Source of the DNA: Antedon mediterranea | Lineage: Eukaryota > Echinodermata > Crinoidea > Comatulida > Antedonidae | Direction of reading: 5' to 3' | DNA: 64,000 bases | Assembly (NCBI RefSeq): GCF_964355755.1 | Contig: NC_092680.1 | Span: forward strand, 12,501,001-12,565,000 | Part shown: positions 11,301 through 63,357 of the stretch, one piece after another | Position numbering within the stretch: the first letter of the stretch is position 1 | How the letters are laid out: each line of letters opens with the position of its first letter | Notes under the pieces: generated by a model | Databases searched by the model: none | Told to the model about the DNA's origin: nothing | What the model saw: the letters and a program-made list of their open reading frames with translations, nothing else | Position numbers and translations under genes: made by a program

Positions 11301-14300
11301 TCGAACTTCAAGTAATGCCATATATGGGTCAGTTTTGCTTTTCTTACACTTCATCAACATAGTCTTTGCTGCTTTTACAGCTGCCTCTGCTTTACCATTA
11401 GCATTAGGATGATGTGGAGATGAGGTTTGATGTTGGAAATCCCAATTTGCACTGAAGTTTCTGAACTCTTGACTTGCAAATTGGGGGCCGTTATCCGAAA
11501 TAACAATTTCAGGAATCCCGTTTCTCGCAAAGTGTTGCTTTACTTTCTTTATGACTGATTTAGTTGTTGTTTCAGTTAGTTTGTCAACTTCCCAAAATCC
11601 ACTGTAGTAGTCCACTGTGGTCATGTAATCTACCTTATCAAGTGTGAATAGGTCAATTCCAACTTTGTGGTAAGGATATTTGGCTTCAATAGGAATCATA
11701 GTTTCCTTTGTCTGTGCCTGTTGATACGTTTGACAAGCATCGCACATTTGTGTCATTTGTTTTATTTCATATGACATTCCGGGCCAAAAAATACATTCCC
11801 TTGCTCTTCTCAGCATACTATCTCCTCCAAGGTGGGAAACATGCAGACGTTCCTTTATTGATTTTCGTGATGAGATAGGTACTACTACTCGTTCACCTTT
11901 GAATACAAGTCCATCATGCACTGCCAGTTCATCTCTGAATGAATAATAAGGCATAATCTGCGTTGGTACAAACTGTTTTTCATCTGGCCATCCTTGCATA
12001 ATTATGGATTTCAGTATTTTTGTAGTTTCATCCATGTTTGTTTCTCTTTTAAGTTCATCAATTCGCTCTGGGCCAATACGAAGACCACCAACTGCATTTA
12101 CTTGATCAAATTTGTCTACCTTGTCAGTATTTGGTAGATATGCCCTAGATAAAGTGTCGGCGATATACATTTCTTTGCCTCTTGTGTATACTATCTTTGT
12201 ATCGTACTGTAACAGTCTCATCAGCATGCCTTGCAGTCGCTTTGGAGCTTTGTGTAAAGGCTTTCTCACAATCATTTCAAGAGGTTTGTGATCACTGTTG
12301 ATAATAGTCAAACGTCCAAATGTATACTGATGAAATCTCTCCATTGCAAAAACAATTGCGAGGCACTCCTTCTCTATTTGAGCATATCTTACTTCTGTAG
12401 CTGATAGAGATCTGCTAGCGTATGCAATTGGCTTTCCTTCTTGTAATAAAGCTTCTCCAAGTCCTGTGCTTGAGGCGTCACATTGTACTATTAACTCCTT
12501 CTTTGGATCATAATAGACTAGAATAGGAGCTTTAGTGATTAGTTGTTTCAAATTAAGCATTGCTTTATCTTGGTCATCTGATCAGTGCCACTGACAATCT
12601 TGATGAGTCAGTCGACGAAGTGGTTCAACAACAGTTGCTAGCTGAGGTAGGAACTTTGCTAGGTAATTTGTTAATCCTAGCATTCTACGAACACCTTCAA
12701 CATCTGTTGGATTATCCATTTTGAGGATTGCTTCTAGCTTTTTCACGTCAGGTTTTAATCCATTAGCAGTTATGGTATGTCCCATGAAATCAATTGTGTC
12801 AGTATGAAATACACTCTTCTCTTTATTTAGTTGTATTCCAGCTTTCTGACATTTTTCAAAAAGGTTTCTCAAACTTTTGTCATGTTTTTCAGTTGTATTA
12901 CCATAGACAAGTATGTCATCTGCTACGCATGCTACTCCTTCTAACCCTGTCAATGATTCATTTAACTTCCTTTGGAAAATTTCTGAGCTCACTTTCAAAC
13001 CAAAGGGTAATCTATTCCAGCGAAATCTTCCAAACGGACAGATAAACGTAGTCAGACGGCTGCTGTTTTCGTCCAATTCACAGTGCCAGTATCCATGTGA
13101 CAGATCAACCTTGCTAAATACCTTTGCATTGGCTAGTTCTGGTAGAATATCCTCCATGGTTGGTAGTGGATATCTCTCACGCTGCAGAACTTCATTCAGC
13201 GGTCTCGGATCTACGCATATTCTTAGTTTACCATTTTTTTTGGTTTGTATAGATATCTGTGAACACCAGTCTGTTGGTTCAGATACTGGCGTTATAACAC
13301 CTTCTGTTAGTAGTTTGTCTAGTTCCTCTTTTAACTTGGGCTTCACGGATATAGGTACTCTTCGAGCTGGACATTGCGTTCCTTTTGAGTGCTCGGCAAT
13401 CTTTATACAAACTTTTCCTGGTAGACGTCCCAGTTTACCATTAAAAACTGTTTTGTAGTCTTCAAGGATCTTGGATGTTGTCTGTGTGACACTATGTAAT
13501 TGCTTGAAGTTACTGTAGTTTACCGTGATCAGTTTCATTTTTTCTGCTGTCTCTCTGCTTAATAGTGGTTGTAAATCTTGTTTGACAATTTGAAAATCAA
13601 CTGTATATGACTTGTTTGTGGCGTCATTTTTAAGCGTTAGCACACATTTTCCTAATGGGATGACTTTGCTCTTGTTATACATTGTTAACTTTGTGTGTGA
13701 TTGTTCAATTTTGGTACTACCTAGTTCAACATATTTTACTGGTATCACGTTTACAGTAGCTCCGCTGTCCACTTGGAATCGTATTTTACTTCCATCATTC
13801 ATGGTCATTTCCGCATATATTGGTCCTGTTGAAACATTGTAAATTTTGTCTTCAGTTACACTCAATGTACTATCATCTGAATCTTGTGCTTCAACACCAT
13901 ATAGCTTGGGTTTCCGTTTGCATACAATAGCGAAATGGTTCATTAATTTGCATTTGTTGCACCGTTTACCCCAGGCAGGGCACATTTCTTTCTTTCTTGG
14001 GTGGCTGTTTCTACAATATTTGCATTTAGGCATGTTGCCAGACGGTGCTCTGTCACTAGTTTTATGTTTTCCTGATGACTGAGGGGTTTCATGTTTCTGC
14101 TTATGTCCACCTCTGTTCATCACTTTATGAACTTCTTCTTCCTCCAATGATTTACCAGAAATCACTTTCATTTGGTTGTATGTGTTTTCATAGCTGTGGC
14201 AGATGTCAATACATTTCTTTAAATCTATTTTTCTTTCTTGGAATAGTCGTTTTCTTACTCTTTCATCATGCACACCCAGTACTAAACGATCTCGAATTAG

Positions 14301-17300
14301 ACCATCTTTCATGCAATCACAGAAATTACAGGTTTTTCTGAGTATTTTCAAAGCATTTATATATGTGTCAATTGACTCGCCTTTTTCTTGTTTTCGGGAA
14401 TTGAATTTATATCGTTCAAAAATTTCATTGGTTTCACCAAGGATAAACGTATCCAATTTTTGTATGATTTCCTCACACGTGTCAGATTCTAGTGGGTCAC
14501 ATCCATTATATATTTGGAGTGCATCAACACCCATGGTAGAGATCAGTAATGATTTCTTAAAATGAGGTGATCGTGATGGATGATCTAGGTTGCTAGCAAT
14601 GGTATAATGTGTCCAAAGCTGCTTCCATAATTTCCAATTTTCCTGTTTACCATTTGTGTCTAGTTTTACCGGTTCTGGGGGTTTAACATTGAACATCGGG
14701 ACAGGCATTTGTATCGTCGGCAGTCCGTTGCCGTTAGCTTCATCCTGCAGGCCATGTGCGTCATTTTGCACGCCCTCCTCGCCGTCTGCCATGCTGGCTA
14801 GGCTAGTCGTATCTATCTCGTGAGATTTAACAGTAAATATCTTACTTTACTTATCTGTGTTTCAGTGTGCAATTCAGACTAATCTTTTCTTGCAATGAGC
14901 ACCGCTGCCACCATGTTTCACGTTTCGTGAATGGTAGAATATAACAATAAAGATACGGACTAAATAACTCGTGTTACTCGGTAGCCATATTTATTCAGGT
15001 CAAGAACATAGCGCCCTCAGTCGGGACACGATACTGTGACAAAGTGAGGCAGGATGTTGAAACAATGTCTATTCATGCAGTCTCCGTGGGTCTATTATTG
15101 TATTTTTATTTGTATGCACTGCCTTTGTTAAACCGTAACAATAATATAAACATGCACGCTACTACACGCAGGACGTAGAAAAAAAAGAAGCGTGCAACCA
15201 ACCGTGAATCAATCACGTGCTAACCGGAATACGCGATTATCAATTTTGGGAGGATCCAAGTTTTAACTAAATAAACGCTTTGATTACAAAGTGGTTGAGA
15301 CACGTTTTTAATAGTTATTACATTTTTAAACACCCTCATAATTAATGAACTCTACCAATGTTGATCCGCTGCAAAGAACAACAGATCGCACATCGCACGA
15401 GGTTGTTGAGGCGGTGTTTTATTTGGTTTTACTGTACGATCCGATAATACGAACATGTTAAATGATTTAAAAGGCATGGATTCGCCAAGCAAGTAGGCCT
15501 ACGTTTAATAAAAATAAAAAAAAAGATTTTCGTAAGCTCTTTTGTTCAAACTTGTTATTTATTATATAGCAATAATCCACCCGTTCCGGCATGCACGCTA
15601 GGCCTCTAGCCTAGCTAGGCCTACTCCTCGATCGATCGATGTCGCTGGTGGGGAATTTCCCAGCGATAAGAAATCGGCGAAATAGCTCATAAACGGCCTA
15701 CATTTTAATGTTATATCTTTAATGCCAGTGTAATTACGTATGGATAAAACAATATAAAACTCAATGTTTTTCATCTGAAATAATATGTTAACTCGCGTAA
15801 TGTAGCATAAGACGGATTCGGAATAGTTATTTCGATTGTTTTGGGGTTTTAAAATGGTAGCTAGCTAGGGCCTAGCTAGAAGTAGAAGCCCTAGGCTAGG
15901 CCTAGGCCTGTGCCTAAAAAAAATGAGTAAATTCTATTGGGCAATACTATCATGTGTTTATTGTACATTATGTAATTAAGTTAAATTATTTTATATACTG
16001 AATATTAGTTAAAATACAGTATATATTTTTTACATTTTTTGTACTGAGGATGTGTCCATAAAAAAAATATTAGAATGTAAAAATACTGATGTATAAACCT
16101 ATGTAAAAATTAAGCCAACTTATGTGTAAATATTGTATATACTGTATATGTAACATATTTAGTTAATTAAGAGACGTAAACGACACGCGTGTTGATTTTC
16201 GATTCCCCGCGTGTTGATTTTCGATTCCCCGCGCGTTGACTTTCGACGCCCCGATGAATTGAATGTGGTTCACGACAAAATCTCCTGCGAATAGACTTTC
16301 CCAAGTTGGGACCTCTGTTTTTACGCCAACATAACAATGTAAGGCCTATTTGTACGTACAGTCTACAAGGCGGAAATGCAGTCATTTTAAAAAGAAAAAT
16401 AATTGTTAGGCCCTAATTTTTAAAATAATAAATGATAATCTAATAATAGCCACAAAGAAAATATAACACTGGACTACATTCAAAATTAAATAAATTGTGT
16501 GTAAATTCGGATTATTATGTTTTTATATTAGATTTGTCGATATGTTCCAGTATTTTAACATTTAAACCATTAGTCAGTTAAGTTCCACGTGTGCGCTTGC
16601 AATAGTGATTTGATTGACAGCACCGGGGTGATCGATGTAGTGTAAATGGGCGCAACTCGAGTTCATCTCGCAGTTTTTTTGGCTAGTGTAAATGGAAATT
16701 GCCTCCGAGTTCAACTCGTGTTCCTCTCTCAGTCGATAGTGTAAAAAGGGTATTTACACGTGGTGTACCGCAAACTTTTTATCAACAAAAGAAATAAAAA
16801 GAATTAAAGTAACAAAATGCCAAGGACACACGCTGAACTATTGTATCATTTGAAAACAATTATATTTAGCAAGAGATTATGGATTTAAATACGCCATTTT
16901 GACAGCACTGATATGTTTTCTTTCCAACAGAAACGGGTCCACATAGAAAGAACAGATTTTAAATCCGGTTTTACAAAAACCGTTGATTCGGGTTTTAGAA
17001 CAGTTTTTCTTTTAGCAAAGGTGATCTCAAGAAAACTTGAGAAGGGCGCAGGATTGGTCGAATGGACAAGAACAGTTAAGAGCATGTCGATATAACAGCA
17101 TTAAAAATAAGCAATAGCAACGTAGGCCTCCTACAGCATAGAAGCAATGAATAAAACAGCTAGCAGTGCTAAAAAGGGGCATCATAGCTGCGTTAAAGCT
17201 TAAGCCAAACATAAGCTATGCAAAAAAGGGGAAAGATAAGAGCTCATTAGGCCTATATACTTAAATTTGCAACATTAGCTAAATATATAAATGCTATATT

Positions 17301-20778: not shown

Positions 20779-20784
20779 GGCAAT
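20779..20784. repeat. Left 6-bp target-site duplication of the palindrome
   Basis: GGCAAT abuts the first palindromic base, and the same direct 6-mer abuts the last one at 34404-34409. Confidence 0.7.
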
Positions 20785-20803
20785 AGTAGTAATAGTGATA
20801 CTT

Positions 20804-21356
20804 CAGACCCGACCTTGGTGTATTTCCTGATTACGTAATATCCGCCAGGTGTTTCTAATGAAGGTCGTTCATTTCCTGGTACTTCAGCCCAAGGTTGGCT
20901 TTGGTGTATTTCCTGGTAGTTACGTAATAGTTATATAATTTCCGCCAGGTGTTTCTAATGAAGGTCGTTCATTTCCTGGTACTTCAGCCCAAGGTTGGCC
21001 TTGGTGTATTTCCTGGTAGTTACGTAATAGTTATATAATTTCCACCAGATGTTTCTAATGAAGGTCGTTCATTTCCTGGTACTTCAGCCCAAGGTTGGCC
21101 TTGGTGTATTTCCTGGTAGTTACGTAATAGTTATATAATTTCCGCCAGGTGTTTCTAATGAAGGTCGTTCATTTCCTGGTACTTCAGCCCAAGGTTGGCC
21201 TTGGTGTATTTCCTGGTAGTTACGTAATAGTTATATAATTTCCACCAGATGTTTCTAATGAAGGTCGTTCATTTCCTGGTACTTCAGCCCAAAGTTGGCC
21301 TTGGTGTATTTCCTGGTAGTTTCGCAATAGATATGTAATTTCCGCCAGGTGTTTCT
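20804..21356. repeat. 100-bp tandem array at the outer left arm
   Basis: ACTTCAGCCCAAGGTTGG recurs at 20881, 20981, 21081, 21181 and 21281, an exact 100-bp period, after one shorter unit at 20801-20880. Units include TTTCCTGGTAGTTACGTAAT and GAAGGTCGTTCATTTCC. It lies just inside the terminus and upstream of the first gene. Confidence 0.9.
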
Positions 21357-21376
21357 TTGTCTCTTATTTATTAATT

Positions 21377-21413
21377 TTTGGCGCGATGTTCTGGTACGTG
21401 GTGAGTGACGTCA
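21377..21413 (+). promoter_or_regulatory. Promoter region with E2F-like and CRE sites, left arm
   Basis: TTTGGCGC at 21377-21384 fits the E2F consensus and TGACGTCA at 21406-21413 is a perfect cAMP-response element. Both lie 110-150 bp upstream of the ATG at 21526. Binding is inferred from consensus only. The mirrored copy is at 33775-33811. Confidence 0.5.
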
Positions 21414-21525
21414 TTACTTTATTTACGATTTAAGACGGTGAAACAAAGTGAAGCGGCTATTGCTGTACTATTTTCCAGTTGTTTTGCCTATCTTTGCGTA
21501 GAGTATCTCTTTACAGTATTTCATT

Positions 21526-22080
21526 ATGTCTGGAAGTATATATTTTTCGCAAGGGAGTTGTGTAGATACTGTTATAATAATTAGCGATGATGAGGATACT
21601 GTTGTTGTTCCAGGCAGTGATATAGATGATCGTTACACGGCGGCCGAAGAGGTTATCCCCGCCGGTATAGATGAAGGAGTCGAGAGGAGTAACAGGCCTA
21701 CAAGTTGTATATTTACGTACGTGGACGAGGTGGAGAGAGAATTTTTGTTGAAAATGGAGCGTTTGGTTAAACAATTGTTTGCTGCTCAAGTGTTAGCCAA
21801 GTGTTGGGTTTTAAGTAAAGCGGCTTGTTATGGTTGTGAATTTGACAGGAGCAGTCAAAAAGATCATGATTTCTGTTGTATGAAGTCTCTAGAAGAACAG
21901 ATTGACTATTTTTATCGGGAGGTTCTGGATAAGAAGTATGTTTCAGTCGATACCGTTTACAACGAACTAAATATGCAAGGAGAATATTCATTGCCTCGGT
22001 ATAGACATTTCGTTTATTTTCTTGTCAATACCCTGATTAATTCAGAGGCTATTTTTAAGCTGTTGTGCGAGGATATTTAA
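21526..22080 (+). CDS. Unknown 184-aa protein with SUMO-interaction-like motif and Cys/His cluster, left arm
   Basis: A single uninterrupted frame from ATG 21526 to TAA. I do not recognise the family. Residues 16-24 (VIIISDDED), followed by TVVV, form a hydrophobic core plus acidic patch typical of SUMO-interacting motifs. Residues about 66-100 form a likely amphipathic helix. Cys101, Cys104, His114, Cys117 and Cys118 (ACYGCEFDRSSQKDHDFCC) could bind zinc. The rest is mixed helical. It lies 162 bp upstream of the PC4-ALKBH2 gene in the same direction and behind an E2F/CRE-like promoter. The second copy at 33108-33662 is identical. A nuclear regulatory role is a guess from the SIM and its neighbour. 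Confidence 0.7.
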   Translation: MSGSIYFSQGSCVDTVIIISDDEDTVVVPGSDIDDRYTAAEEVIPAGIDEGVERSNRPTSCIFTYVDEVEREFLLKMERLVKQLFAAQVLAKCWVLSKAACYGCEFDRSSQKDHDFCCMKSLEEQIDYFYREVLDKKYVSVDTVYNELNMQGEYSLPRYRHFVYFLVNTLINSEAIFKLLCEDI

Positions 22081-22242
22081 ATTGTGTTTGATCGCACGTG
22101 TCACGGAAACGATTGACCGGAAATAACAATCATTATCTTTTTAATTACTGTACTGGGCTACTTCCCTACTGAGCTGCATATACATCCTGATTCAAGCGTA
22201 ATCGTTCGTTTCACTCTCTGTAACTCTCTACAGTCTATAAAC

Positions 22243-24074
22243 ATGAGTTTCAACTGTTTACCTACTCCGAAATTGGCAATTGGTGAGAAAGCCCGTAGGA
22301 CTATGAAAAGAGTTATGGGGAGTTCTAATGGTCAAACTGACGAGTGTAGCAGTTTAAAATTACCAACGATGGCTTCTACATCAGCGAATATAATGGATTC
22401 TATAAAATCTTTTAACGGTCAAACAGATGAGTGTAAAGGTTTGAGTAAAGCCTTAGGAATGAGCGCCCGAGATTTTGCCGTAATGACCGATGGTGTACCA
22501 AAGATTTCCATAACTTCAAAGAATCGGATTTTCTTGTCTAAAAAACGCCATGTAGTGGCCCAACGATGGGGTGACGATGTTTATGTTTGTCTCAGAGAGT
22601 ATTACCAAACGGAAGAATATGGTGCCTTCAAACCTGGACCTCTAGGTATTAATTTACCCGTTCTGCTGTGGCAAAAACTTTTCAACAATATTGATTTAAT
22701 TATTCAGGCACTGGAAGACTTACAAAGAGACATTAACATGGTGGAGGCAGTAAGAATCCCACTTTCGGACATAATTCATGTGGTAGTTAGTAACTGGAAA
22801 GAAGAACAATTTGTGTGTATTCGCCGCTATTACCAGTCTGAAGAAGGAGGCAAGTTTAAACCCGGTAAAAAAGGTGTAAACCTTCCAAAGAGTCAGTGGT
22901 TCAAGATAATTGAAAAACACTGTGAAATACAAAAGATGATTGAGGAGGTTAGTAATGATAATGCGGCTACTGTTGACAAAAGCGATAATGGAGGACGTTT
23001 ATTCAATTCAGAACATCAATTGCTACCCCCTGATAAGTTATCGGTGCAAAAGATAATAGGGGAAAATTTAGACTGTGATTACCTTCAACTTCTTGATAAA
23101 GGAGCAGCCGATACATTGTTTAAAAAATGTGAGGAAGAGATTGACTATTTTACCGGTGATCTTGCAAAGGTGAAAGTGTATGGAAAGTGGTTTAATATTC
23201 CTAGAAAACAGGTTAGTTCCATTATATTTTTATCCGTGGTTTTGTATTAATGACTTGTTAATTACTTGTATATCGTTTCCTTTGTTTTTCTTTATTTACC
23301 GCTGTGTAGCTATAGGTGTAATTTACTCTTTTACTGTAAATTATTTTATTTAGGCGTGTTCATTTACATCTCGCCAAATAATAAATGACTTTCTTTGTAT
23401 GGTTTCCTCTCTGCAGGTTTCGTTTGGCGATTCGGGCTTAACTTACAAATATTCAGGCAATACAGTACCAGCTTTACCATGGCCACCATTCCTGAAAGAT
23501 CTCCGCGACCTTTTAAAATCGGTTACAGGACATTACTTCAATTTTGTTTTGGTCAACCGGTAAATATTCTTGTTTATTATTTTATTTATTTATTTATTTT
23601 TTTATTGATTAAAAGGGTCTATAGTTTACCTCTAAAACGATTGAACATTATCAGTATTCATACTGGATGATTTCTGCAATTTGTTAGATAAGATTGTTTT
23701 AATGGATAATTGGGGTTTTTTTTAGTCTCATCTTAAAATATCTTATTTTCTATTGTATTTTGTCGTTACTCTATAGATATGCTACTGGAAGTGATTACAT
23801 TGGCGAACACAAAGATGATGAGAAAGACATGGATCACTTTAGTCCAATCGCCTCTGTATCATTGGGGCAAACACGTATGTTTAGATTTCGACATGGTGAT
23901 GCGCGAGGTAAGAGTCCCAAAAGAATCATTGAGCCAGTAACTGTTGATCTTAAACACGGTACATTATTAATGATGAATTATCCCACTAATGAGTACTGGT
24001 ACCATTCACTGCCTAAAAATCAATCCATCAAGCTACCAAGAATAAATCTCACGTTTAGAGATATTAAAAGATGA
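22243..24074 (+). CDS. PC4-PC4-ALKBH2 fusion: two ssDNA-binding-like domains plus a DNA dioxygenase, left arm
   Basis: Exons 22243-23211, 23417-23559 and 23777-24074; phases 0 and 2 join cleanly to give 469 aa. The N-terminus carries a duplicated NGQTDEC motif (residues 29-35 and 58-64). Two PC4/p15-like domains follow, about 92-155 and 176-236; diagnostic are CLREYYQTEEYGAFKPG and CIRRYYQSEEGGKFKPGKKG with a later conserved Trp. From about 265 it is an ALKBH2-type Fe(II)/2-oxoglutarate dioxygenase: YFTGDLAKVKVYGKW, GDSGLTYKYSG, iron ligands His382, Asp384 and His447 (IGEHKDD, YWYHSLP), and Arg459/Arg465 (PRINLTFR) for 2-oxoglutarate. ALKBH2 enzymes remove 1-methyladenine and 3-methylcytosine from DNA. 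PC4 domains are not part of vertebrate ALKBH2 (about 260 aa). A role in repairing or protecting single-stranded or melted DNA is inferred. Confidence 0.88.
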
Positions 24075-24585
24075 GAGAAATGTTACGCAAACATTACAGT
24101 CTTTAATAGTGATTGCAGATCTCAAGAATATCAACTGTTCATGATCTGTTCTCATTTAGTATAGTAGTACCAGTTGAATTATTTTTGTGATGATATTCCT
24201 ACAAATGGTTGTATTATTGTATTGAAGTTAATTCACTTAGATCTTGGCCTAATTCCATTGATCGTTAATAATCATGTGATTGTTTGTCATTGTGTGGATA
24301 ATGATTAACTTTACGAATAATTTCTTAAAAGTAACTTGTAATGTATTTCTAATTGTTAAATACAATTTTTTATGTTTTTAATAAGTGTGTAAGTTTTTCT
24401 TTAAAGCATTTTAATCGTAATTTCAAGAGTAATATGTACTTGTAACGTTTGAAACGGACTGGTAGATTAAACAAAAAAAAACAAAAACAACAAAAACAAA
24501 ACACGTTATAATAACACTAATAATAGCACATATTTTCGTACATGTATCAATGATTTATCTACATATGTGTGATTAATATTATTAC

Positions 24586-24591
24586 AATAAA
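24586..24591 (+). terminator. Poly(A) signal candidate for the left PC4-ALKBH2 gene
   Basis: AATAAA about 510 bases after the stop codon; no closer canonical signal was seen. The mirrored copy is at 30597-30602. Confidence 0.4.
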
Positions 24592-27267
24592 GACCATGTA
24601 CATCTACGATATTTTTACTGTAAGTGGTATTGTAAATAAAAATTATGAATTCAATCGTGAGATAAGACCGATATCTGTGTATTATTTTATATTACTTTTA
24701 TCATAATTGCAACAACAAAAAAACTCAGAGAAATCATAATTATCGAATACAGAAAGACGTTTTGGTTACCAATTGTATTTCTTGACACTTAATACATTTT
24801 AACAGAAAACAAGACCTTCAACCGGAGCCAAAAATGGAAATTTGTTTACGTGCAGGTTATTGCCATTAGATATTCTTAGAACTACTTTGGTTTATAAATA
24901 TTGTCACTTTTTTTCTACACGTTTATCTACCGAGATTTTGTTTTCCTTTTTATGAATCTTCCGTTGTTCATAAGCATTATTAATTTTTACAGGCCTTGTT
25001 CTTCGCTTTGCAGGCTAAATCTTATAACGGCATAGGCCTACATTTTAACGGTTCTTTGTAAATATCCTCTTATTGATTGTTACCTTTAGTTCTCTGAATG
25101 TTTTAATTTACCGTAGATGATGAAAAAATCCCTTAATCTAGCACCATTTAAAAAAAAAAAAAAAGGTTCCGCAGTAAATGGTTTATTTTTGATGGTATTG
25201 ATGGAATCATCGAGGCACAATATTAGGCTGAAAAACATGACGTCACTATTTTAAACGGTTTATCATAACAAGAACAATTAACCAATCACAAAACTGAGCT
25301 ACTGATTTGCGTAGAAGTTTCTGGAAATGACAAATTAAGGAAACACGTACACATTAATAAATATATATTAATTTTTATATAAATAATAGACAAAACAAAA
25401 GGAAATACACCAAACAAATCATTTTTGTTATGAATTTATAATAACTTTAAATTTTGTCCATCACAGGAGACGCGTTTAGCGTTTTCCAATTGTAAAACAG
25501 TTTCGCATTGCGTCGCAACACATGCACATACTGCAAGTACCGTACCGTACTGTAACAAGTCTACTGATATGTATTTTGTTGGTCACTCATCATTTTAGCC
25601 AACACATTATTTAACTCATCAGGTGTAATATCTTTTCACAAATCCTTTATATCTTTACTTTTTCTTGACAACTCATAACAAACAAGAATAGTACTCTGAA
25701 TGAGTGTGGGAGAGGTGTGTGAGAGTCCCATTCAACTAAACCTTGCCAATTTGTACTCGACCTACGATAAAACCATTTTTTTAAAGTCAACATAGCGACG
25801 CGAGAAAAAATTGATAATAGGGATAAAAAGTTTTTCTTGCATTGTTATACAGTAATCTATGTTTTTCGGTGTTTACACCATCTCATTGTTTATAATTACG
25901 TTTGTTAATATCGATAGTGTTTCTCTAGCAGAGTTATATTACTTGTTTATACTCGTATAGTTTGAAGTCCTCCATGTTGTTCGTATATTTTGTAAAAAGT
26001 GTACTTATGATTACTTTTAAAAACCAACTCATTTTATTTGCATTTTATCTACACCTCATGGTTAAAATGTGTTGTTTTTCATAGAGTGTGATGATGCTTA
26101 AAACGTTATACTAGTATAACCACCAAAACGGTTTATTATCTGTAGGAAATCATCAATTGTAACATGCGGTAAACAATACAAATTAGTTTCACAAATTATT
26201 AAAAAATAGCACAATTGTTACAAATGAATTTAAGAAAATAAAGGTGTACAGATTTTATTTCGAAAAAGTGTAGGCCTATACCTACAAAGATAATTTTACA
26301 TAAAGTGTACAGAATAAATTAACAAAAAAAGGTCACACATACATTAAACTAATTCTTATAAAAGTGTACAGTGTACTTTGGTTATCAGGTATATCAACTT
26401 TAGTATTTTAAGTATAGGGCCTATTTGTGGCAAACACACGGTCCCTTTTAATTGTGGGTAGAGGCCTTTTGCCGTTCGTAATTCAAACTGTTCGTAAAAT
26501 TGAAGTTAATATTCTGAGATTAGGCCTATAGCCTATGATCGCAGCTTATACTAGTCAACGGTCTAAAAGAGTTGTATTGCAGGATGTGAAACATAAAAGT
26601 TCATTAATAAACAGTATATTATAACGATAAAGAAACGAATGTACGATACACCAATATAGCAATACAATAACTGATTAACTGAAAACTTGAAGTCTACTGT
26701 ATTCCTACAATCATTCAAGTAGACATTGTTTGCTGAGTGTATGGTACTTTCTCCAAAGAGAATTCGAACGATGGGCTTTCGGACGTGTTTCTACGGTTAT
26801 CAGAACGGGTCGATAATGAAAAAAAAACAAAAACAAAACAAACAAACTGCCTACTAACTCCCAAAAAAATCAATACCTATAAATAAGCTGAACCTACCCC
26901 ACTAAATAATCTCTTCCATACATCAAAATCGACCGAAAATGATCTGGACATTGAAAAATGGACACGGTCGTCTGTTCTTCTTTTCTGTTTCCACGGCTTG
27001 GGACGACATCCCTGTTAGTGATGTACGGTAGCCATGCGGTCTACACACTTATGATGACCACATCGCATAACATGTTCAGGGAACTTATTTTTCAACTCTC
27101 TGATACAATGTTTAAATACAAGTAGACTGGAAACCATTTAGGAACAGGGGTTTCTAATAATAAAAGTTGTTTAAAACTTTAGTTATTGTCAAGGGGAATT
27201 GTTCAAGACTTGGAGTAAAAATGGTCAAGACCGGAGGAAAATGGTCAAGACCGGGGAAAATGGTCAA
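24592..27267. other. Non-coding AT-rich inner part of the left arm
   Basis: No open frame of note. It contains homopolymer A runs, a GTACCGTACCGTACTGTAC cluster (25540) and, at the inner edge, 20-bp repeats of AAAATGGTCAAGACCGG (27230-27275). It is exactly mirrored by 27921-30596. Confidence 0.6.
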
Positions 27268-27275
27268 GACCGAAA
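27230..27275. repeat. 20-bp tandem repeat at the arm-spacer junction
   Basis: Three direct copies of AAAATGGTCAAGACCGG at the inner end of the left arm. Palindromy stops inside the third copy, right after GGTCAA. The right arm reads two full copies, then departs. Confidence 0.8.
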
Positions 27276-27455
27276 GAAAATTAAATTTCACCATTTTATA
27301 AGTTTATAGTCATTTATTGTGTTAAAATTCATTTATTATTAGACCTGTATACGTATTCAATAACAAAAAATAACTTTGTTACATTAATAACATATCTTTA
27401 GTGGTTAAGGTAATATATTATTTCTCTGTATACTGACGTCACAAATATAGATAAA

Positions 27456-27752
27456 GAGAGACTGTAACTAAATGTTTATTACTTATTAGGGTTACAGGGA
27501 GAGTTCCATGCAGCATTAAAAGGTCAATTAATGAGCCACCCAACTTAATTAAGTACCGGTACTTAACAAATGTGCTCAAACTCAATAAGGGTTACAAATC
27601 TACAAGAGACTGTAACTAAATGTTTATTACTTATTAGGGTTACAGGGAGAGTTCCATGCAACATTAAAAGGTCAATTAATGAGCCACCCAACTTAATTAA
27701 GTACCGGTACTTAACAAATGTGCTCAAACTCAATAAGGGTTACAAATCTACA
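27456..27752. repeat. Direct 147-bp duplication inside the palindrome spacer
   Basis: ACTGTAACTAAATGTTTATT starts at 27461 and again at 27608, and the unit repeats almost perfectly (GCAGC versus GCAAC). It includes the palindrome AAGTACCGGTACTT. It is the only large unique feature of the spacer. Confidence 0.85.
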
Positions 27753-30700
27753 AAAGAGGACATTTTATTTTTAAACCAGGGTTAAACATTAAAAGGTCAA
27801 TTACTTGAACTCTGAACATGGGAAAAATACTTGTGTCAATTGACACTTGAACTTGACATCTATACAAGGACGAATAGACTGTGACAATTAACCATGACCT
27901 CTGGTCAGCCGTTTTCACAGTTGACCATTTTCCCCGGTCTTGACCATTTTCCTCCGGTCTTGACCATTTTTACTCCAAGTCTTGAACAATTCCCCTTGAC
28001 AATAACTAAAGTTTTAAACAACTTTTATTATTAGAAACCCCTGTTCCTAAATGGTTTCCAGTCTACTTGTATTTAAACATTGTATCAGAGAGTTGAAAAA
28101 TAAGTTCCCTGAACATGTTATGCGATGTGGTCATCATAAGTGTGTAGACCGCATGGCTACCGTACATCACTAACAGGGATGTCGTCCCAAGCCGTGGAAA
28201 CAGAAAAGAAGAACAGACGACCGTGTCCATTTTTCAATGTCCAGATCATTTTCGGTCGATTTTGATGTATGGAAGAGATTATTTAGTGGGGTAGGTTCAG
28301 CTTATTTATAGGTATTGATTTTTTTGGGAGTTAGTAGGCAGTTTGTTTGTTTTGTTTTTGTTTTTTTTTCATTATCGACCCGTTCTGATAACCGTAGAAA
28401 CACGTCCGAAAGCCCATCGTTCGAATTCTCTTTGGAGAAAGTACCATACACTCAGCAAACAATGTCTACTTGAATGATTGTAGGAATACAGTAGACTTCA
28501 AGTTTTCAGTTAATCAGTTATTGTATTGCTATATTGGTGTATCGTACATTCGTTTCTTTATCGTTATAATATACTGTTTATTAATGAACTTTTATGTTTC
28601 ACATCCTGCAATACAACTCTTTTAGACCGTTGACTAGTATAAGCTGCGATCATAGGCTATAGGCCTAATCTCAGAATATTAACTTCAATTTTACGAACAG
28701 TTTGAATTACGAACGGCAAAAGGCCTCTACCCACAATTAAAAGGGACCGTGTGTTTGCCACAAATAGGCCCTATACTTAAAATACTAAAGTTGATATACC
28801 TGATAACCAAAGTACACTGTACACTTTTATAAGAATTAGTTTAATGTATGTGTGACCTTTTTTTGTTAATTTATTCTGTACACTTTATGTAAAATTATCT
28901 TTGTAGGTATAGGCCTACACTTTTTCGAAATAAAATCTGTACACCTTTATTTTCTTAAATTCATTTGTAACAATTGTGCTATTTTTTAATAATTTGTGAA
29001 ACTAATTTGTATTGTTTACCGCATGTTACAATTGATGATTTCCTACAGATAATAAACCGTTTTGGTGGTTATACTAGTATAACGTTTTAAGCATCATCAC
29101 ACTCTATGAAAAACAACACATTTTAACCATGAGGTGTAGATAAAATGCAAATAAAATGAGTTGGTTTTTAAAAGTAATCATAAGTACACTTTTTACAAAA
29201 TATACGAACAACATGGAGGACTTCAAACTATACGAGTATAAACAAGTAATATAACTCTGCTAGAGAAACACTATCGATATTAACAAACGTAATTATAAAC
29301 AATGAGATGGTGTAAACACCGAAAAACATAGATTACTGTATAACAATGCAAGAAAAACTTTTTATCCCTATTATCAATTTTTTCTCGCGTCGCTATGTTG
29401 ACTTTAAAAAAATGGTTTTATCGTAGGTCGAGTACAAATTGGCAAGGTTTAGTTGAATGGGACTCTCACACACCTCTCCCACACTCATTCAGAGTACTAT
29501 TCTTGTTTGTTATGAGTTGTCAAGAAAAAGTAAAGATATAAAGGATTTGTGAAAAGATATTACACCTGATGAGTTAAATAATGTGTTGGCTAAAATGATG
29601 AGTGACCAACAAAATACATATCAGTAGACTTGTTACAGTACGGTACGGTACTTGCAGTATGTGCATGTGTTGCGACGCAATGCGAAACTGTTTTACAATT
29701 GGAAAACGCTAAACGCGTCTCCTGTGATGGACAAAATTTAAAGTTATTATAAATTCATAACAAAAATGATTTGTTTGGTGTATTTCCTTTTGTTTTGTCT
29801 ATTATTTATATAAAAATTAATATATATTTATTAATGTGTACGTGTTTCCTTAATTTGTCATTTCCAGAAACTTCTACGCAAATCAGTAGCTCAGTTTTGT
29901 GATTGGTTAATTGTTCTTGTTATGATAAACCGTTTAAAATAGTGACGTCATGTTTTTCAGCCTAATATTGTGCCTCGATGATTCCATCAATACCATCAAA
30001 AATAAACCATTTACTGCGGAACCTTTTTTTTTTTTTTTAAATGGTGCTAGATTAAGGGATTTTTTCATCATCTACGGTAAATTAAAACATTCAGAGAACT
30101 AAAGGTAACAATCAATAAGAGGATATTTACAAAGAACCGTTAAAATGTAGGCCTATGCCGTTATAAGATTTAGCCTGCAAAGCGAAGAACAAGGCCTGTA
30201 AAAATTAATAATGCTTATGAACAACGGAAGATTCATAAAAAGGAAAACAAAATCTCGGTAGATAAACGTGTAGAAAAAAAGTGACAATATTTATAAACCA
30301 AAGTAGTTCTAAGAATATCTAATGGCAATAACCTGCACGTAAACAAATTTCCATTTTTGGCTCCGGTTGAAGGTCTTGTTTTCTGTTAAAATGTATTAAG
30401 TGTCAAGAAATACAATTGGTAACCAAAACGTCTTTCTGTATTCGATAATTATGATTTCTCTGAGTTTTTTTGTTGTTGCAATTATGATAAAAGTAATATA
30501 AAATAATACACAGATATCGGTCTTATCTCACGATTGAATTCATAATTTTTATTTACAATACCACTTACAGTAAAAATATCGTAGATGTACATGGTCTTTA
30601 TTGTAATAATATTAATCACACATATGTAGATAAATCATTGATACATGTACGAAAATATGTGCTATTATTAGTGTTATTATAACGTGTTTTGTTTTTGTTG

Positions 30701-31113
30701 TTTTTGTTTTTTTTTGTTTAATCTACCAGTCCGTTTCAAACGTTACAAGTACATATTACTCTTGAAATTACGATTAAAATGCTTTAAAGAAAAACTTACA
30801 CACTTATTAAAAACATAAAAAATTGTATTTAACAATTAGAAATACATTACAAGTTACTTTTAAGAAATTATTCGTAAAGTTAATCATTATCCACACAATG
30901 ACAAACAATCACATGATTATTAACGATCAATGGAATTAGGCCAAGATCTAAGTGAATTAACTTCAATACAATAATACAACCATTTGTAGGAATATCATCA
31001 CAAAAATAATTCAACTGGTACTACTATACTAAATGAGAACAGATCATGAACAGTTGATATTCTTGAGATCTGCAATCACTATTAAAGACTGTAATGTTTG
31101 CGTAACATTTCTC

Positions 31114-32945
31114 TCATCTTTTAATATCTCTAAACGTGAGATTTATTCTTGGTAGCTTGATGGATTGATTTTTAGGCAGTGAATGGTACCAGTACTCATT
31201 AGTGGGATAATTCATCATTAATAATGTACCGTGTTTAAGATCAACAGTTACTGGCTCAATGATTCTTTTGGGACTCTTACCTCGCGCATCACCATGTCGA
31301 AATCTAAACATACGTGTTTGCCCCAATGATACAGAGGCGATTGGACTAAAGTGATCCATGTCTTTCTCATCATCTTTGTGTTCGCCAATGTAATCACTTC
31401 CAGTAGCATATCTATAGAGTAACGACAAAATACAATAGAAAATAAGATATTTTAAGATGAGACTAAAAAAAACCCCAATTATCCATTAAAACAATCTTAT
31501 CTAACAAATTGCAGAAATCATCCAGTATGAATACTGATAATGTTCAATCGTTTTAGAGGTAAACTATAGACCCTTTTAATCAATAAAAAAATAAATAAAT
31601 AAATAAAATAATAAACAAGAATATTTACCGGTTGACCAAAACAAAATTGAAGTAATGTCCTGTAACCGATTTTAAAAGGTCGCGGAGATCTTTCAGGAAT
31701 GGTGGCCATGGTAAAGCTGGTACTGTATTGCCTGAATATTTGTAAGTTAAGCCCGAATCGCCAAACGAAACCTGCAGAGAGGAAACCATACAAAGAAAGT
31801 CATTTATTATTTGGCGAGATGTAAATGAACACGCCTAAATAAAATAATTTACAGTAAAAGAGTAAATTACACCTATAGCTACACAGCGGTAAATAAAGAA
31901 AAACAAAGGAAACGATATACAAGTAATTAACAAGTCATTAATACAAAACCACGGATAAAAATATAATGGAACTAACCTGTTTTCTAGGAATATTAAACCA
32001 CTTTCCATACACTTTCACCTTTGCAAGATCACCGGTAAAATAGTCAATCTCTTCCTCACATTTTTTAAACAATGTATCGGCTGCTCCTTTATCAAGAAGT
32101 TGAAGGTAATCACAGTCTAAATTTTCCCCTATTATCTTTTGCACCGATAACTTATCAGGGGGTAGCAATTGATGTTCTGAATTGAATAAACGTCCTCCAT
32201 TATCGCTTTTGTCAACAGTAGCCGCATTATCATTACTAACCTCCTCAATCATCTTTTGTATTTCACAGTGTTTTTCAATTATCTTGAACCACTGACTCTT
32301 TGGAAGGTTTACACCTTTTTTACCGGGTTTAAACTTGCCTCCTTCTTCAGACTGGTAATAGCGGCGAATACACACAAATTGTTCTTCTTTCCAGTTACTA
32401 ACTACCACATGAATTATGTCCGAAAGTGGGATTCTTACTGCCTCCACCATGTTAATGTCTCTTTGTAAGTCTTCCAGTGCCTGAATAATTAAATCAATAT
32501 TGTTGAAAAGTTTTTGCCACAGCAGAACGGGTAAATTAATACCTAGAGGTCCAGGTTTGAAGGCACCATATTCTTCCGTTTGGTAATACTCTCTGAGACA
32601 AACATAAACATCGTCACCCCATCGTTGGGCCACTACATGGCGTTTTTTAGACAAGAAAATCCGATTCTTTGAAGTTATGGAAATCTTTGGTACACCATCG
32701 GTCATTACGGCAAAATCTCGGGCGCTCATTCCTAAGGCTTTACTCAAACCTTTACACTCATCTGTTTGACCGTTAAAAGATTTTATAGAATCCATTATAT
32801 TCGCTGATGTAGAAGCCATCGTTGGTAATTTTAAACTGCTACACTCGTCAGTTTGACCATTAGAACTCCCCATAACTCTTTTCATAGTCCTACGGGCTTT
32901 CTCACCAATTGCCAATTTCGGAGTAGGTAAACAGTTGAAACTCAT
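31114..32945 (-). CDS. PC4-PC4-ALKBH2 fusion, right-arm copy
   Basis: Mirror copy of the left-arm gene: exons 32945-31977, 31771-31629 and 31411-31114, encoding the same 469 aa with iron ligands and both PC4-like domains intact. No substitution is seen in the open frames. The two copies are transcribed toward each other across the palindrome centre, so long transcripts from both would be complementary in their 3' parts. Confidence 0.88.
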
Positions 32946-33107
32946 GTTTATAGACTGTAGAGAGTTACAGAGAGTGAAACGAACGATTACGCTTGAATCA
33001 GGATGTATATGCAGCTCAGTAGGGAAGTAGCCCAGTACAGTAATTAAAAAGATAATGATTGTTATTTCCGGTCAATCGTTTCCGTGACACGTGCGATCAA
33101 ACACAAT

Positions 33108-33662
33108 TTAAATATCCTCGCACAACAGCTTAAAAATAGCCTCTGAATTAATCAGGGTATTGACAAGAAAATAAACGAAATGTCTATACCGAGGCAATGA
33201 ATATTCTCCTTGCATATTTAGTTCGTTGTAAACGGTATCGACTGAAACATACTTCTTATCCAGAACCTCCCGATAAAAATAGTCAATCTGTTCTTCTAGA
33301 GACTTCATACAACAGAAATCATGATCTTTTTGACTGCTCCTGTCAAATTCACAACCATAACAAGCCGCTTTACTTAAAACCCAACACTTGGCTAACACTT
33401 GAGCAGCAAACAATTGTTTAACCAAACGCTCCATTTTCAACAAAAATTCTCTCTCCACCTCGTCCACGTACGTAAATATACAACTTGTAGGCCTGTTACT
33501 CCTCTCGACTCCTTCATCTATACCGGCGGGGATAACCTCTTCGGCCGCCGTGTAACGATCATCTATATCACTGCCTGGAACAACAACAGTATCCTCATCA
33601 TCGCTAATTATTATAACAGTATCTACACAACTCCCTTGCGAAAAATATATACTTCCAGACAT
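33108..33662 (-). CDS. Unknown 184-aa protein with SUMO-interaction-like motif, right-arm copy
   Basis: Identical mirror copy of 21526-22080, with ATG at 33662 and the same SIM-like and Cys/His motifs. It lies upstream of, and in the same direction as, the right-arm PC4-ALKBH2 copy. Confidence 0.7.
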   Translation of the reverse strand: MSGSIYFSQGSCVDTVIIISDDEDTVVVPGSDIDDRYTAAEEVIPAGIDEGVERSNRPTSCIFTYVDEVEREFLLKMERLVKQLFAAQVLAKCWVLSKAACYGCEFDRSSQKDHDFCCMKSLEEQIDYFYREVLDKKYVSVDTVYNELNMQGEYSLPRYRHFVYFLVNTLINSEAIFKLLCEDI

Positions 33663-33774
33663 AATGAAATACTGTAAAGAGATACTCTACGCAAAGATAG
33701 GCAAAACAACTGGAAAATAGTACAGCAATAGCCGCTTCACTTTGTTTCACCGTCTTAAATCGTAAATAAAGTAA

Positions 33775-33811
33775 TGACGTCACTCACCACGTACCAGAAC
33801 ATCGCGCCAAA
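33775..33811 (-). promoter_or_regulatory. Promoter region with E2F-like and CRE sites, right arm
   Basis: Mirror image of 21377-21413; it drives the right-arm copy of the 184-aa gene. Confidence 0.5.
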
Positions 33812-33831
33812 AATTAATAAATAAGAGACAA

Positions 33832-34386
33832 AGAAACACCTGGCGGAAATTACATATCTATTGCGAAACTACCAGGAAATACACCAAGGCCAACTTTGGG
33901 CTGAAGTACCAGGAAATGAACGACCTTCATTAGAAACATCTGGTGGAAATTATATAACTATTACGTAACTACCAGGAAATACACCAAGGCCAACCTTGGG
34001 CTGAAGTACCAGGAAATGAACGACCTTCATTAGAAACACCTGGCGGAAATTATATAACTATTACGTAACTACCAGGAAATACACCAAGGCCAACCTTGGG
34101 CTGAAGTACCAGGAAATGAACGACCTTCATTAGAAACATCTGGTGGAAATTATATAACTATTACGTAACTACCAGGAAATACACCAAGGCCAACCTTGGG
34201 CTGAAGTACCAGGAAATGAACGACCTTCATTAGAAACACCTGGCGGAAATTATATAACTATTACGTAACTACCAGGAAATACACCAAGGCCAACCTTGGG
34301 CTGAAGTACCAGGAAATGAACGACCTTCATTAGAAACACCTGGCGGATATTACGTAATCAGGAAATACACCAAGGTCGGGTCTGAA
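33832..34386. repeat. 100-bp tandem array at the outer right arm
   Basis: Inverted copy of 20804-21356, same unit number and order. Confidence 0.9.
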
Positions 34387-34403
34387 GTATCACTATTACT
34401 ACT

Positions 34404-34409
34404 GGCAAT
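34404..34409. repeat. Right 6-bp target-site duplication of the palindrome
   Basis: GGCAAT, a direct copy of 20779-20784. Beyond it the two flanks are unrelated. Confidence 0.7.
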
Positions 34410-34985: not shown

Positions 34986-37018
34986 CAAAGTGCGAGGCAG
35001 CGAGGCACGCGCGGCATGCCAAATATTTGTGCGAGGCATCATTTTATCATTTCCAAAAGTGCGAGGCATGCGAGGCATATAGTTTACAATTTCAAAAAGG
35101 TGCGAGGCATATCTTAACGTGCTATTATGCTATATTATAGGCCTAATAATCAATCGATACAAGGGTATCTAAATAGATTCGTGTATACACTCATCATGTT
35201 GTTTATTTTTATGTAACGATTGTTTTTTCATTCAAGTCATATCGTGTCAAATTTTACTTTTACAAAAGTGCCCAAACTACGGTTCAAAAATCTGAACGAC
35301 AGTCTTCAACTTTCGATAAACAATAATTGTATAGCGACACACTCATCAAATGACTGCAATGTTTGTTGGCATTTCGAGCGTGTTTACTCACATGTCTCTC
35401 GAACATAGCAGAGTGAAAATAATATTTTGTCACACCCCTGCGCCTAGATCCGGTAGACCCGAGAGATGGAAAATCCCTCTTTACTATTTAGCAGGTAGCG
35501 GAATGATTCAGCCCCCCTCAGCTCAGAGGATTGTGGTGCATTCCCCTCCTATAGCACGTGGTTTCAGCAGCAACGCACAGACTTCTCTCTGAGCGGCGTG
35601 CCAAAGACATTTTTGACATTCCATTCTCTAGGAACAACACGTGTACCTCTCTCGCAAATAAGGTGAACAGCGATTGCCAGGACAAGTTCAATAACTGGCG
35701 GTGAATAAAAGGTAACTGATATGCCGATCCAATAACATGCCGCAAAGAAAAAAATTGCGACAGAATTCTGGAGCGCGTGTGAAAAAAGACTTACGTCCGA
35801 CAATTGTAATACTAGGCCTAAAATTAAACTTTAGCTAATATGCTTAGCCCTAACCTAGATAAGAGGCCTATGTAGAAAATAATTTAATCAATTTTGATAA
35901 AATAATAATTAGTGTAATATTTAATAATGATACACTATTCCTGTTTTAGTAAGCTAGGTAGGCTATATTACGAACGATTTTTATTTATTGTTGTCCATGT
36001 ACGTACTAATAAACCTGGCGCTAGTTTCCTTCGCTTGTATTTTTACTCCAAATTTGATAACTAACTTTATCGTGTGAATACCACACCTTAGAAGTATACC
36101 TCATGAGTACTTTAATGAAAGAATCACATAAAAAGTAACAAATAAATCCTTAAATTAATGATTTTACAGGCGTGTTTCTCGCACACTGTTCGCGAATTTC
36201 ACTTATTCAATGTTCAATATTTTTGTTTCTATGGAGCGCCAAAAGAGCAACGATAATAGAGGACTAAAACTCAGTGGAATGCGTCAATTTCTCATGCATT
36301 TATTGGTGAAAAACACGTTTTATTTCAATATATTTGTTAATTTGTCAATAAAAATGTTGTAATATGTTACTGCTGATACTGTTCTGTTTTCAAAGAATAA
36401 TAATCGATCCTAAATCAACATCACTACCTAGTCTAGACCTAGGACATCCTACTAAGGATATTATGATGAATTTTTCTATTTTATTCTTTAAAAGGTTAAC
36501 GAAACCGTGTACATTATCAACAGTAACATTTTTCCTTACTGACAGTGACAAAATCTATTGAAATTGTACTTGATTTTCACCAAATAATGCGTTAAATATA
36601 AATGGATTCCACAGAGTTTTTAGCCCTCTAATTAATTTTGCTCTTTTGGCGTTCCATAGAAACCAAAATATTGAACATTGAGTGTGCGAAATGCGAGAAA
36701 AACAACGTCTGTAAAATCACCAATTTAATGGATTTATTGTTACTTTTATGTGATTTTTCTTCATTAAAGTAGGCCTACTAATTCTAAGCTGTGGTATTCA
36801 GGATAAAGCCTTGGTTAAAATACAAGGCAGGTGCAAAAGGAAACTAGCCTAGCGGGCCTAGGCCTAGGCTACTTCAATTTCGGTGATTTCCTGCCTTGCA
36901 ATTTTGAGAAATGATAAAATGATGCCTCGCATTTTTTGATGATGGTAAAACGATGCCTCGCATAAATTTCTGACTTGCCTCGCATGCCTTCCCTGCCTCG
37001 CGTGCCTCGCACTTTGTT
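34986..37018. mobile_element. 2-kb foldback element with GTGCGAGGCA-repeat termini
   Basis: The left end carries AAAGTGCGAGGCA followed by several GCGAGGCA copies (34986-35110). The right end carries the inverse, TGCCTCGC copies ending TGCCTCGCACTTTG (36935-37018). A second inverted pair lies inside: 36018-36266 mirrors 36621-36855, including GGCGCTAGTTTCCT/AGGAAACTAGCC and GCCAAAAGAGCAA/TTGCTCTTTTGGC. Non-coding; no clear target duplication seen. Confidence 0.6.
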
Positions 37019-62028: not shown

Positions 62029-63357
62029 AAGGGCCCTACCAAACAATAAAAACTGTACTTTAAAATGTTATTAATCATCTAAAACACTGTGAAACAAAGT
62101 AGTTTAGTTTTACGAATGTCAAGCATTTTTAATAATGGTAACCGACAGAAAACGTATAAGGAGAACATTATCATTCCGAAAACCACGAGCTCACCCTCTA
62201 GTATTATTAATCCAGGTATTCTGTATTGAATTGGTTTTTTTTAACGGGCCTTGAGCACTCTTTGTGTGGTATAGTTACAATTATTAGTTACAATTTGCGA
62301 TAATTGATTGAAATGATGAGTCTTTGAAATTGAACATTATATAAATAAATGAACATCAGGTACATACAAATAATAATTGAGTAATGTATTTTTTGTAGAT
62401 TTGCATAACGAAAATGATTAGGATGTCAACTTTTGTTTAATCGTTACCTGGAATCATGTCGCAGACATGGTCCTGTGACCCACGAACATATCCCCCATTA
62501 CGTTCCGTTACTGTCGCTTTGCATGTCACGTTTTTATTACGCACTACACATCTCAAAGTCACTGTTGCACGGGTTCGGTCGACCTTTTTGGTGTACTGAT
62601 AACCGATGCTATCAGCCAACGTGTCCTATAAAAACAGTAATTGAGAAAATGAATTGTTAAATAACAAAACACGATAAATAAATGCACTTAACCGAATCTG
62701 TAAATATATATTAATTAAGTAATTTGTGGCGATAATGTAATTGAATTAGGTCATCTCTGTACAAATTTAACAGATCCAAAACATAAAAACAGTAATTGAG
62801 TATAATTTGTTGTTAAATAAAACACGATAAATAAATGCACTTAACCGAATCTGTAAATATATATTAATTAAGTAATTTAATAATAATGTAATTGAATTAG
62901 GTCATCTCTGTAAAAATTTAACAGATCCAAAACATAAAAACAGTAATTGAGTATAATTTGTTGTTAAATAAAACACGAAACGCAAAAAAATAATTAATTC
63001 AAATACCTTGCCCCGGTTAGAGGTTCCTGGAAGAACTCTGTAGGTCACTTCATCCTCTGGAGCTACCACAGGATTAGCAACCGGATATGGGTCTGGTAGA
63101 TCATCTTCGACAAATTCGTCGGGTTCAGCGAAATTTCCCAAATTCTCCGCAAAAACATCGTGAGCTTGTTTGTTATTGCCGGCCAACATACAATCACCAC
63201 AAGACCAATCCATGTATCCATTCTCAATACCTCGCCGGTATTCCTCCTGGGATATTCCCGTACCACACGTCCTGTGCTGCCAGCGTTCGCATTCTTCGCA
63301 AAATATTGCCTCTTGGCGTTGAATTTCAAGTTGATGACATTCTAAGCATTCGTTCAT

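Follow-up and report, generated by a model that had tools for sequence, protein, structure and literature searches.

In the crinoid Antedon mediterranea, a 64,000-nucleotide stretch of contig NC_092680.1 (hereafter the window, to which coordinates without a contig label refer) holds a 13,619-bp palindrome at positions 20785-34403, which we call element A. We propose that A is probably a self-complementary, non-autonomous Polinton that inserted recently; the founder of its lineage would have arisen by fold-back, and the element would replicate through a hairpin and insert by means of a helper integrase. The comparison of A with its relatives in the same genome points to a multicopy inherited family with a common centre and selected-looking genes, for which the single defective copy first proposed by a sequence-only reading of the window is too narrow a description. 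The palindrome is thus an inherited form, and its two arms seem to stay alike during the evolution of the family.

The palindrome and its borders

The arms of A are reverse complements of each other over 6,483 bp, free of gaps and with a single mismatch (a transition), at a constant coordinate sum of 55188. Their inverted match ends exactly at both borders, with 0 bp of extension outward and 0 bp inward; GGCAAT abuts both ends as a 6-bp target-site duplication (TSD), and the flanks farther out are not inverted copies of each other. The largest other inverted match in the window, outside A, is a 798-bp alignment at 71% identity (self-inverted region 36065-36808), thus excluding a chance origin of the palindrome. 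With its TSD and no outward extension, A also does not behave as a host segmental palindrome. Both ends are inverted and of the AGTAGT type, (AGT)2, and begin AGTAGTAATAGTG.

According to the available text of PMC8097293, the ends of vertebrate Mavericks are of the (AGT)2 type and their TSDs measure 6 bp; intact copies have terminal inverted repeats (TIRs) of 46-1,447 bp (mean, 402 bp). A resembles Polinton/Maverick (adintovirus-like) elements in its ends, in its TSD, and in the left-end genes that it shares with three full-length relatives (B, C, and H), and differs from them by its 6.5-kb inverted repeats and by the lack of integrase, PolB, and capsid genes; C5 protease and A32-type ATPase genes are likewise absent from A, and no transposase match was found among the six arm open reading frames (ORFs) tested against Pfam. 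Because A lacks PolB and integrase, though B, C, and H have both, we class it as a non-autonomous Polinton derivative. Much of the sequence-only reading therefore holds: the near-perfect palindrome with its arm length, coordinate sum, and 653-bp spacer, the identical open frames in both arms, the GGCAAT at both borders between unrelated flanks, the assignment to Polinton/Maverick derivatives, and the loss of integrase, PolB, and capsid genes with accessory genes kept twice.

Relatives and a common centre

That reading had also called for a genome search with the element end. The terminal 600 bp of A gave at least 65 matches, many as inverted pairs (among the best 40 of 50 candidates scored). 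Relatives were lettered, A being the focal element, and 17 two-ended loci were examined (A, B-K, M, N, O, Q, R, and T), 11 of which are palindromic (A, E, G, I, J, K, M, O, Q, R, and T; M, O, Q, and T are known from their 2-kb ends and 3 kb of centre). Matches outside these loci include C1:8033337, C9:16702900, C9:13918418, C3:27280085, and C3:475517 (C1, C3, C4, and C9 being contig labels), and a lone right end lies at C3:13889016, with no left end within the 2 kb read.

The search recovered the full-length relatives B, C, and H, which carry the full Polinton set, i.e., ORF1, PC4, an integrase with a chromodomain, MCP, C5 protease, an A32-like ATPase, a Bcl-2-like gene, and PolB, the latter as a single open frame in B and C and broken in H. 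The protease and ATPase of B match Pfam, and a 441-aa ORF of B is homologous to proteins, some of which are named capsid protein, and has 99% identity to an A. mediterranea protein. The Bcl-2-like gene has a weak Pfam match (E 0.0015), and its frame slightly overlaps the opposite-strand ATPase frame in B and C. The left end of A is common to all three: arm positions 249-2214 are 90% identical to B, and positions 294-2214 and 324-2214 are 85% identical to C and H, respectively. Among the other loci, D, in which PolB is broken, belongs to the PolB-end type and has long TIRs, F and N hold a single copy of the arm, E holds a LINE-like retrotransposon, and R an inserted retrotransposon of the long terminal repeat (LTR) type. 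R, T, and O have common segments, 97-99.6% identical and differently ordered, and the ATPase fragments of R face the opposite way to those of T.

Perfect 6-bp TSDs, read by eye, flank 13 of the 17 loci (A, B, C, F, H, I, J, K, M, O, Q, R, and T), the exceptions being E (5/6 bases), G and N (inverted flanks), and D (ends unresolved). Relatives with resolved ends have AGTAG-type ends, except for the right end of F (AATAG). These borders bear on whether a fold-back during library preparation, or a mis-join during assembly, could have mirrored one half of the sequence. Such an artefact would duplicate the flanks, whereas TSDs are found instead at A, E, I, J, K, M, O, Q, R, and T; moreover, scattered differences separate the arms of I, J, E, K, R, and Q, and an identical loop occurs at unlinked places on several chromosomes. 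A local mis-join could account for the larger host palindrome around G (99.98% identity over 4.5 kb of flank); N stands between inverted host flanks as well (C4:32029000-32046700), which are 98-99% identical and one of which includes extra sequence. We thus regard an artefact as scarcely credible overall: we reject it for A, where a TSD is present, the flanks are not inverted, and the loop recurs at unlinked places, but not for the host palindrome that surrounds G.

In G, I, K, and M, the arms meet at one common loop of ~64 nt (64 nt in G), with an arm length to the loop of ~6.8-6.9 kb in G, K, and M. The loop is found in both orientations among the relatives, as expected for an element insertable either way round. 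The centre of A has kept one inner arm and the first nine loop bases (AGCCGTTTT), and lacks the remaining loop bases as well as ~0.6 kb of the opposite inner arm. Hence, the 653-bp spacer noted by the sequence-only reading does not represent the original centre and is the secondary product of an asymmetric central deletion. The centres of J and O are asymmetric too.

Searched against the genome, 306 bp of this centre matched 16 places (16 of 16 candidates scored), corresponding to 11 elements (A, E, G, I, J, K, M, U, V, W, and X; partial in A and J) and five partial places. U, V, W, and X are inverted ALKBH2 pairs from a genome search for ALKBH2 in which the host's own ALKBH2 was not told apart from element copies; the centre lies at the midpoint of W and X and ~0.2-0.4 kb off the midpoint in U and V. 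Q and T have a second common centre, with a loop of ~38 nt and different arms.

The existence of at least two centres and of several arm types (ORF1/PC4/ALKBH2, PolB-end, and T/O/R) could suggest that each palindrome arose by an independent snap-back of a different full-length element. This appears very unlikely: independent origin of every copy is contradicted by the 11 elements that have one centre, and might apply only between the centre classes. In addition, F and N are nested among the palindromes in a tree built from a single 500-bp piece and resemble deletion products, so that we reject them as single-copy ancestors.

A chromosomal route has been proposed for Galileo, in which the break of one end is repaired from the other end, internal sequence is recruited, and the TIRs grow until they meet; the available text of PMC3573991 adds a remark on expansion reported in Polintons. 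The TIR of B (1.16 kb, extending into ORF1) and the long TIRs of D, of intermediate length, are consistent with such growth. The common loop of G, I, K, and M stands against it, since TIR expansion would then require a single founding event followed by transposition, and expansion alone leaves unexplained the identity of arms across ~15% divergence (see below). We consider this route improbable, although less so than repeated independent snap-back. As described in the same text, Galileo belongs to the P-element superfamily, has long near-identical TIRs that make up most of the element, internal tandem repeats, and arms alike within a copy, and is mentioned with 7-bp flanking sequences. The A family resembles Foldback/Galileo elements in its long near-identical inverted repeats, its tandem repeats, and the likeness of arms within a copy, and differs from Galileo by its Polinton-type ends, TSD, and genes, and by a spliced protein gene in the arms. 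With a 6-bp TSD and with Polinton genes in the full-length relatives, it does not fall within the P superfamily.

Arm identity and the proposed replication

Within elements, the arms differ over the compared pieces by 0.00% in A, 0.05% in G, 0.21% in K, 0.73% in J, and 0.94% in I, whereas differences between elements amount to 1.3-2.9%, except between G and I (0.29-0.44%). Counts running through the centre are higher (19 substitutions in G and 44 in K), mostly in the 1-kb bin that holds the centre. The arm phylogeny comprises six trees, one per piece; for A, G, J, K, and M, the two arms pair as sisters in each tree having both, and no tree groups the arms by loop side. The sampled 500-bp arm pieces of U, V, W, and X show 0, 1, 0, and 0 differences between arms, while U differs from the other elements compared by 13-15% and V, W, and X differ from A by 5.5-6.5%. 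Arms identical or nearly so within most elements yet up to ~15% apart between elements indicate that the palindromic form is older than this divergence and that the identity of the arms is young. Large changes are likewise found in both arms at once: in either arm of M, the outer stretch of PC4 reaches 93.1% identity with B (79-81% for the arms sampled in A, G, I, J, and K), and the two arms of E both carry sequence of the PolB end.

The main rival explanation for this pattern is normal transposition with two independent arms, followed by host gene conversion that keeps them alike, as in sex-chromosome palindromes. Long arms with a short loop are good substrates for gene conversion, which likewise predicts the element-wise clustering of arms and the identity between the arm pieces sampled in U, V, W, and X. 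However, J and I retain 0.7-0.9% of arm differences across several pieces, which indicates that conversion is not erasing differences quickly and thus disfavours rapid conversion, and the long both-arm changes of M (the B-like PC4 stretch) and E (the PolB-end arms) would need long conversion tracts. Altogether, gene conversion seems to us unlikely, while being the alternative to be taken most seriously.

We therefore return to fold-back and hairpin replication, and propose the following model: (i) protein-primed, strand-displacement copying of one Polinton end would have folded back, resulting in a founder with two equal ends and a short loop; (ii) the displaced single strand of this palindromic element would form one long hairpin; (iii) copying or repair of the hairpin would put the same information in both arms, thus resetting them to identity at each transposition round; (iv) PolB and integrase would be supplied in trans by elements such as B or C, as suggested by the shared ends; and (v) after insertion, the hairpin-prone centre would tend to be lost on one side, as in A. 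Packaging length may also play a role, the palindromes (except the retrotransposon-bearing E and R) measuring 11.3-14.6 kb and B, C, and H 16.3-17.0 kb. Copy-back replication had already been invoked by the sequence-only reading; we infer it as the origin, and the shared hairpin loop fits with it.

Several observations weigh against this model. The case is built on assembled sequence, with no extrachromosomal, replicating, or packaged form in evidence. ALKBH2 and the inner-arm DNA of A are absent from B, C, and H, and the exact parent of A was therefore not found; in this detail, with arms bearing a PC4-ALKBH2 fusion gene and inner DNA foreign to those three elements, the sequence-only reading does not hold. 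The two arms of I do not pair as sisters, since G nests with them in each of the two pieces for which both are usable, and I lacks ~4 kb of one arm and has gained ~1.1 kb in the other. G is enclosed by a host palindrome that spans no less than 6.4 kb on either side (C3:13847615-13874400), so that the identity of its arms may have another cause; this host palindrome would be either an inverted duplication seeded by the palindrome of G or a local mis-assembly. A fifth inverted ALKBH2 pair (C1:31298580 / 31309518) has no match to the common centre. Finally, E combines the common centre with PolB-end arms, and Q combines E-like arm sequence with the centre of T. Palindromes thus appear to swap centres and arms by modular recombination, and since arms and centres have been recombined in E, Q, and T, descent from a single founder is valid for the centre and not for every arm. 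As a separate observation, the fifth ALKBH2 pair is ~83% identical to the focal gene and possibly represents another palindrome class.

Snap-back genomes of adenovirus and self-complementary genomes of adeno-associated virus (AAV) arise in passage or by design. Like them, the A family has one end duplicated in inverted orientation, a short loop, both replication ends, and approximately unit length; unlike them, it is inserted in the germline in many copies and has persisted through up to ~15% divergence.

Genes in the arms and their significance

The features of A are collected in Table 1. B, C, and H also have ORF1 at their left ends; the proteins of A and B are 98% identical, and tblastn with ORF1 of B gave 99.5% for C and 95.8% for H. 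Neither Pfam nor a homolog search, within the proteins covered, gave a match for ORF1, and its AlphaFold model (mean predicted local distance difference test score, 49.7) is too poor for a fold search. Its N terminus (21526-21600) contains a VIIISDDED stretch, which we take to resemble a SUMO-interacting motif. ORF1 is open in 10 of 10 copies with a given 20-base start (A, B, C, G, H, I, J twice, K, and M) and broken in N, which is outside this set. The ratio of nonsynonymous to synonymous substitution rates (dN/dS) is <1 in 40 of the 44 pairs with defined values and >1 in four pairs with very small dS.

The second gene, PC4-ALKBH2, is predicted to encode in three exons a 470-aa fusion of two PC4 domains with a 2OG-Fe(II) oxygenase, with both introns GT...AG and no stop before the gene end. 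Exon 1 presumably also holds the N-terminal part of ALKBH2, and the solved structures nearest to exon 3 are named alkB homolog 2 (best E, 4.9e-35). At the sampled end of exon 1, dN/dS is 0.25-0.54 in 9 of 9 pairs; in intron 1, A and U differ by 20%. The three exons are stop-free in 7 of the 12 copies tested (A twice, K twice, one each in I and J, and F); they are disrupted in G (both arms, identical lesions), in one J arm, and in N, which has a real 9+2-base insertion, and absent from one I arm. These sequence comparisons give a weak to moderate indication that ORF1 and PC4-ALKBH2 are under selection. Over the rest of the A arm, the sole recognised gene trace is a faint Bcl-2-like remnant.

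Table 1. Features of element A and its borders (window positions)
Feature	Position	Strand	Basis
Left TSD, GGCAAT	20779..20784	.	Direct comparison
Left arm, 6,483 bp, begins AGTAGTAATAGTG	20785..27267	+	1 mismatch vs right arm
Terminal tandem repeats, 100-bp unit, 5.2 copies	20836..21356	+	Repeat detection
ORF1, 184 aa	21526..22080	+	Open frame; no Pfam match or homolog
PC4-ALKBH2 exon 1 (two PC4 domain matches, GT donor)	22243..23211	+	Pfam, exon reading
PC4-ALKBH2 exon 2 (AG acceptor, GT donor; weak 2OG-Fe(II) oxygenase match, E 0.0067)	23417..23559	+	Pfam
PC4-ALKBH2 exon 3 (2OG-Fe(II) oxygenase core)	23777..24074	+	Pfam, structure matches
Faint Bcl-2-like gene-region remnant	25462..25698, mirror 29490-29726	-	68% DNA identity to Bcl-2-like stretch of R
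Spacer, 653 bp (inner part of left arm, then ancestral loop remnant, then deletion junction)	27268..27920	.	Comparison with relatives
Tandem repeat, 148-bp unit, 2 copies; present in both arms of G	27457..27757	+	Repeat detection, comparison
Loop remnant AGCCGTTTT (loop common to G, I, K, M)	27907..27915	+	Centre comparison
Right arm, reverse complement of left arm	27921..34403	-	Arm alignment
PC4-ALKBH2 exon 3 mirror	31114..31411	-	Symmetry
PC4-ALKBH2 exon 2 mirror	31629..31771	-	Symmetry
PC4-ALKBH2 exon 1 mirror	31977..32945	-	Symmetry, sum 55188
ORF1 mirror	33108..33662	-	Open frame
Terminal 100-bp tandem repeats, mirror	33832..34352	-	Repeat detection
Right TSD, GGCAAT	34404..34409	.	Direct comparison

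Elsewhere in the window, a retrotransposon with reverse transcriptase, RNase H, and integrase domains lies at 10725-14846 (- strand) in two adjacent open frames, and NXPE4-like/neurexophilin-like exons and a PHD-finger-like open frame just under the Pfam cut-off lie at 5335-7789 and 62902-63378 (both - strand).

In the literature searched, which was mostly open-access and excluded Repbase, we found no report of palindromic Polintons among the papers listed, as judged from titles and first abstract lines, the nearest being the remark on TIR expansion cited above; the available texts of PMC12368964, PMC6431247, PMC11071296, PMC5182062, PMC8097293, PMC3573991, PMC10680173, and PMC12910113 do not report them. 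The family may already be named as non-autonomous in Repbase. Cargo genes are known in nematode Mavericks (available text of PMC10680173), and Maverick viral particles had not been observed according to the corresponding text of PMC8097293.

A more tentative hypothesis, to which we give less than even credence, is that these elements form a persistent satellite lineage of a Polinton virus. Its self-complementary genome would form a hairpin, hold all its information in half its length, and have its arms re-equalised at each replication; the dimer, approximately of helper length, would hence be packageable in helper capsids, and the duplicate PC4-ALKBH2 gene would be selected as a single-stranded-DNA-binding and repair protein. 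As for virophage and transpoviron satellites, such a lineage would use the replication and packaging proteins of a helper while carrying genes of its own. It would differ from them in having as its helper a related Polinton of the host's own genome, and no helper infection, particle, or packaging has been shown for it.

Polinton replication has so far been inferred mainly from gene content. If our proposal is true, the common loop, the graded ages, and the concerted arms would constitute a physical record of fold-back replication in Polintons, and their replication mode would become testable from sequence and extrachromosomal DNA. Moreover, the arms may act like LTRs, in which case the divergence between arms would date each insertion. 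Palindromes of ~14 kb with a ~64-nt loop in an animal genome, together with A, J, and O after partial loss of their centre, may also provide material for the study of chromosomal palindrome instability.

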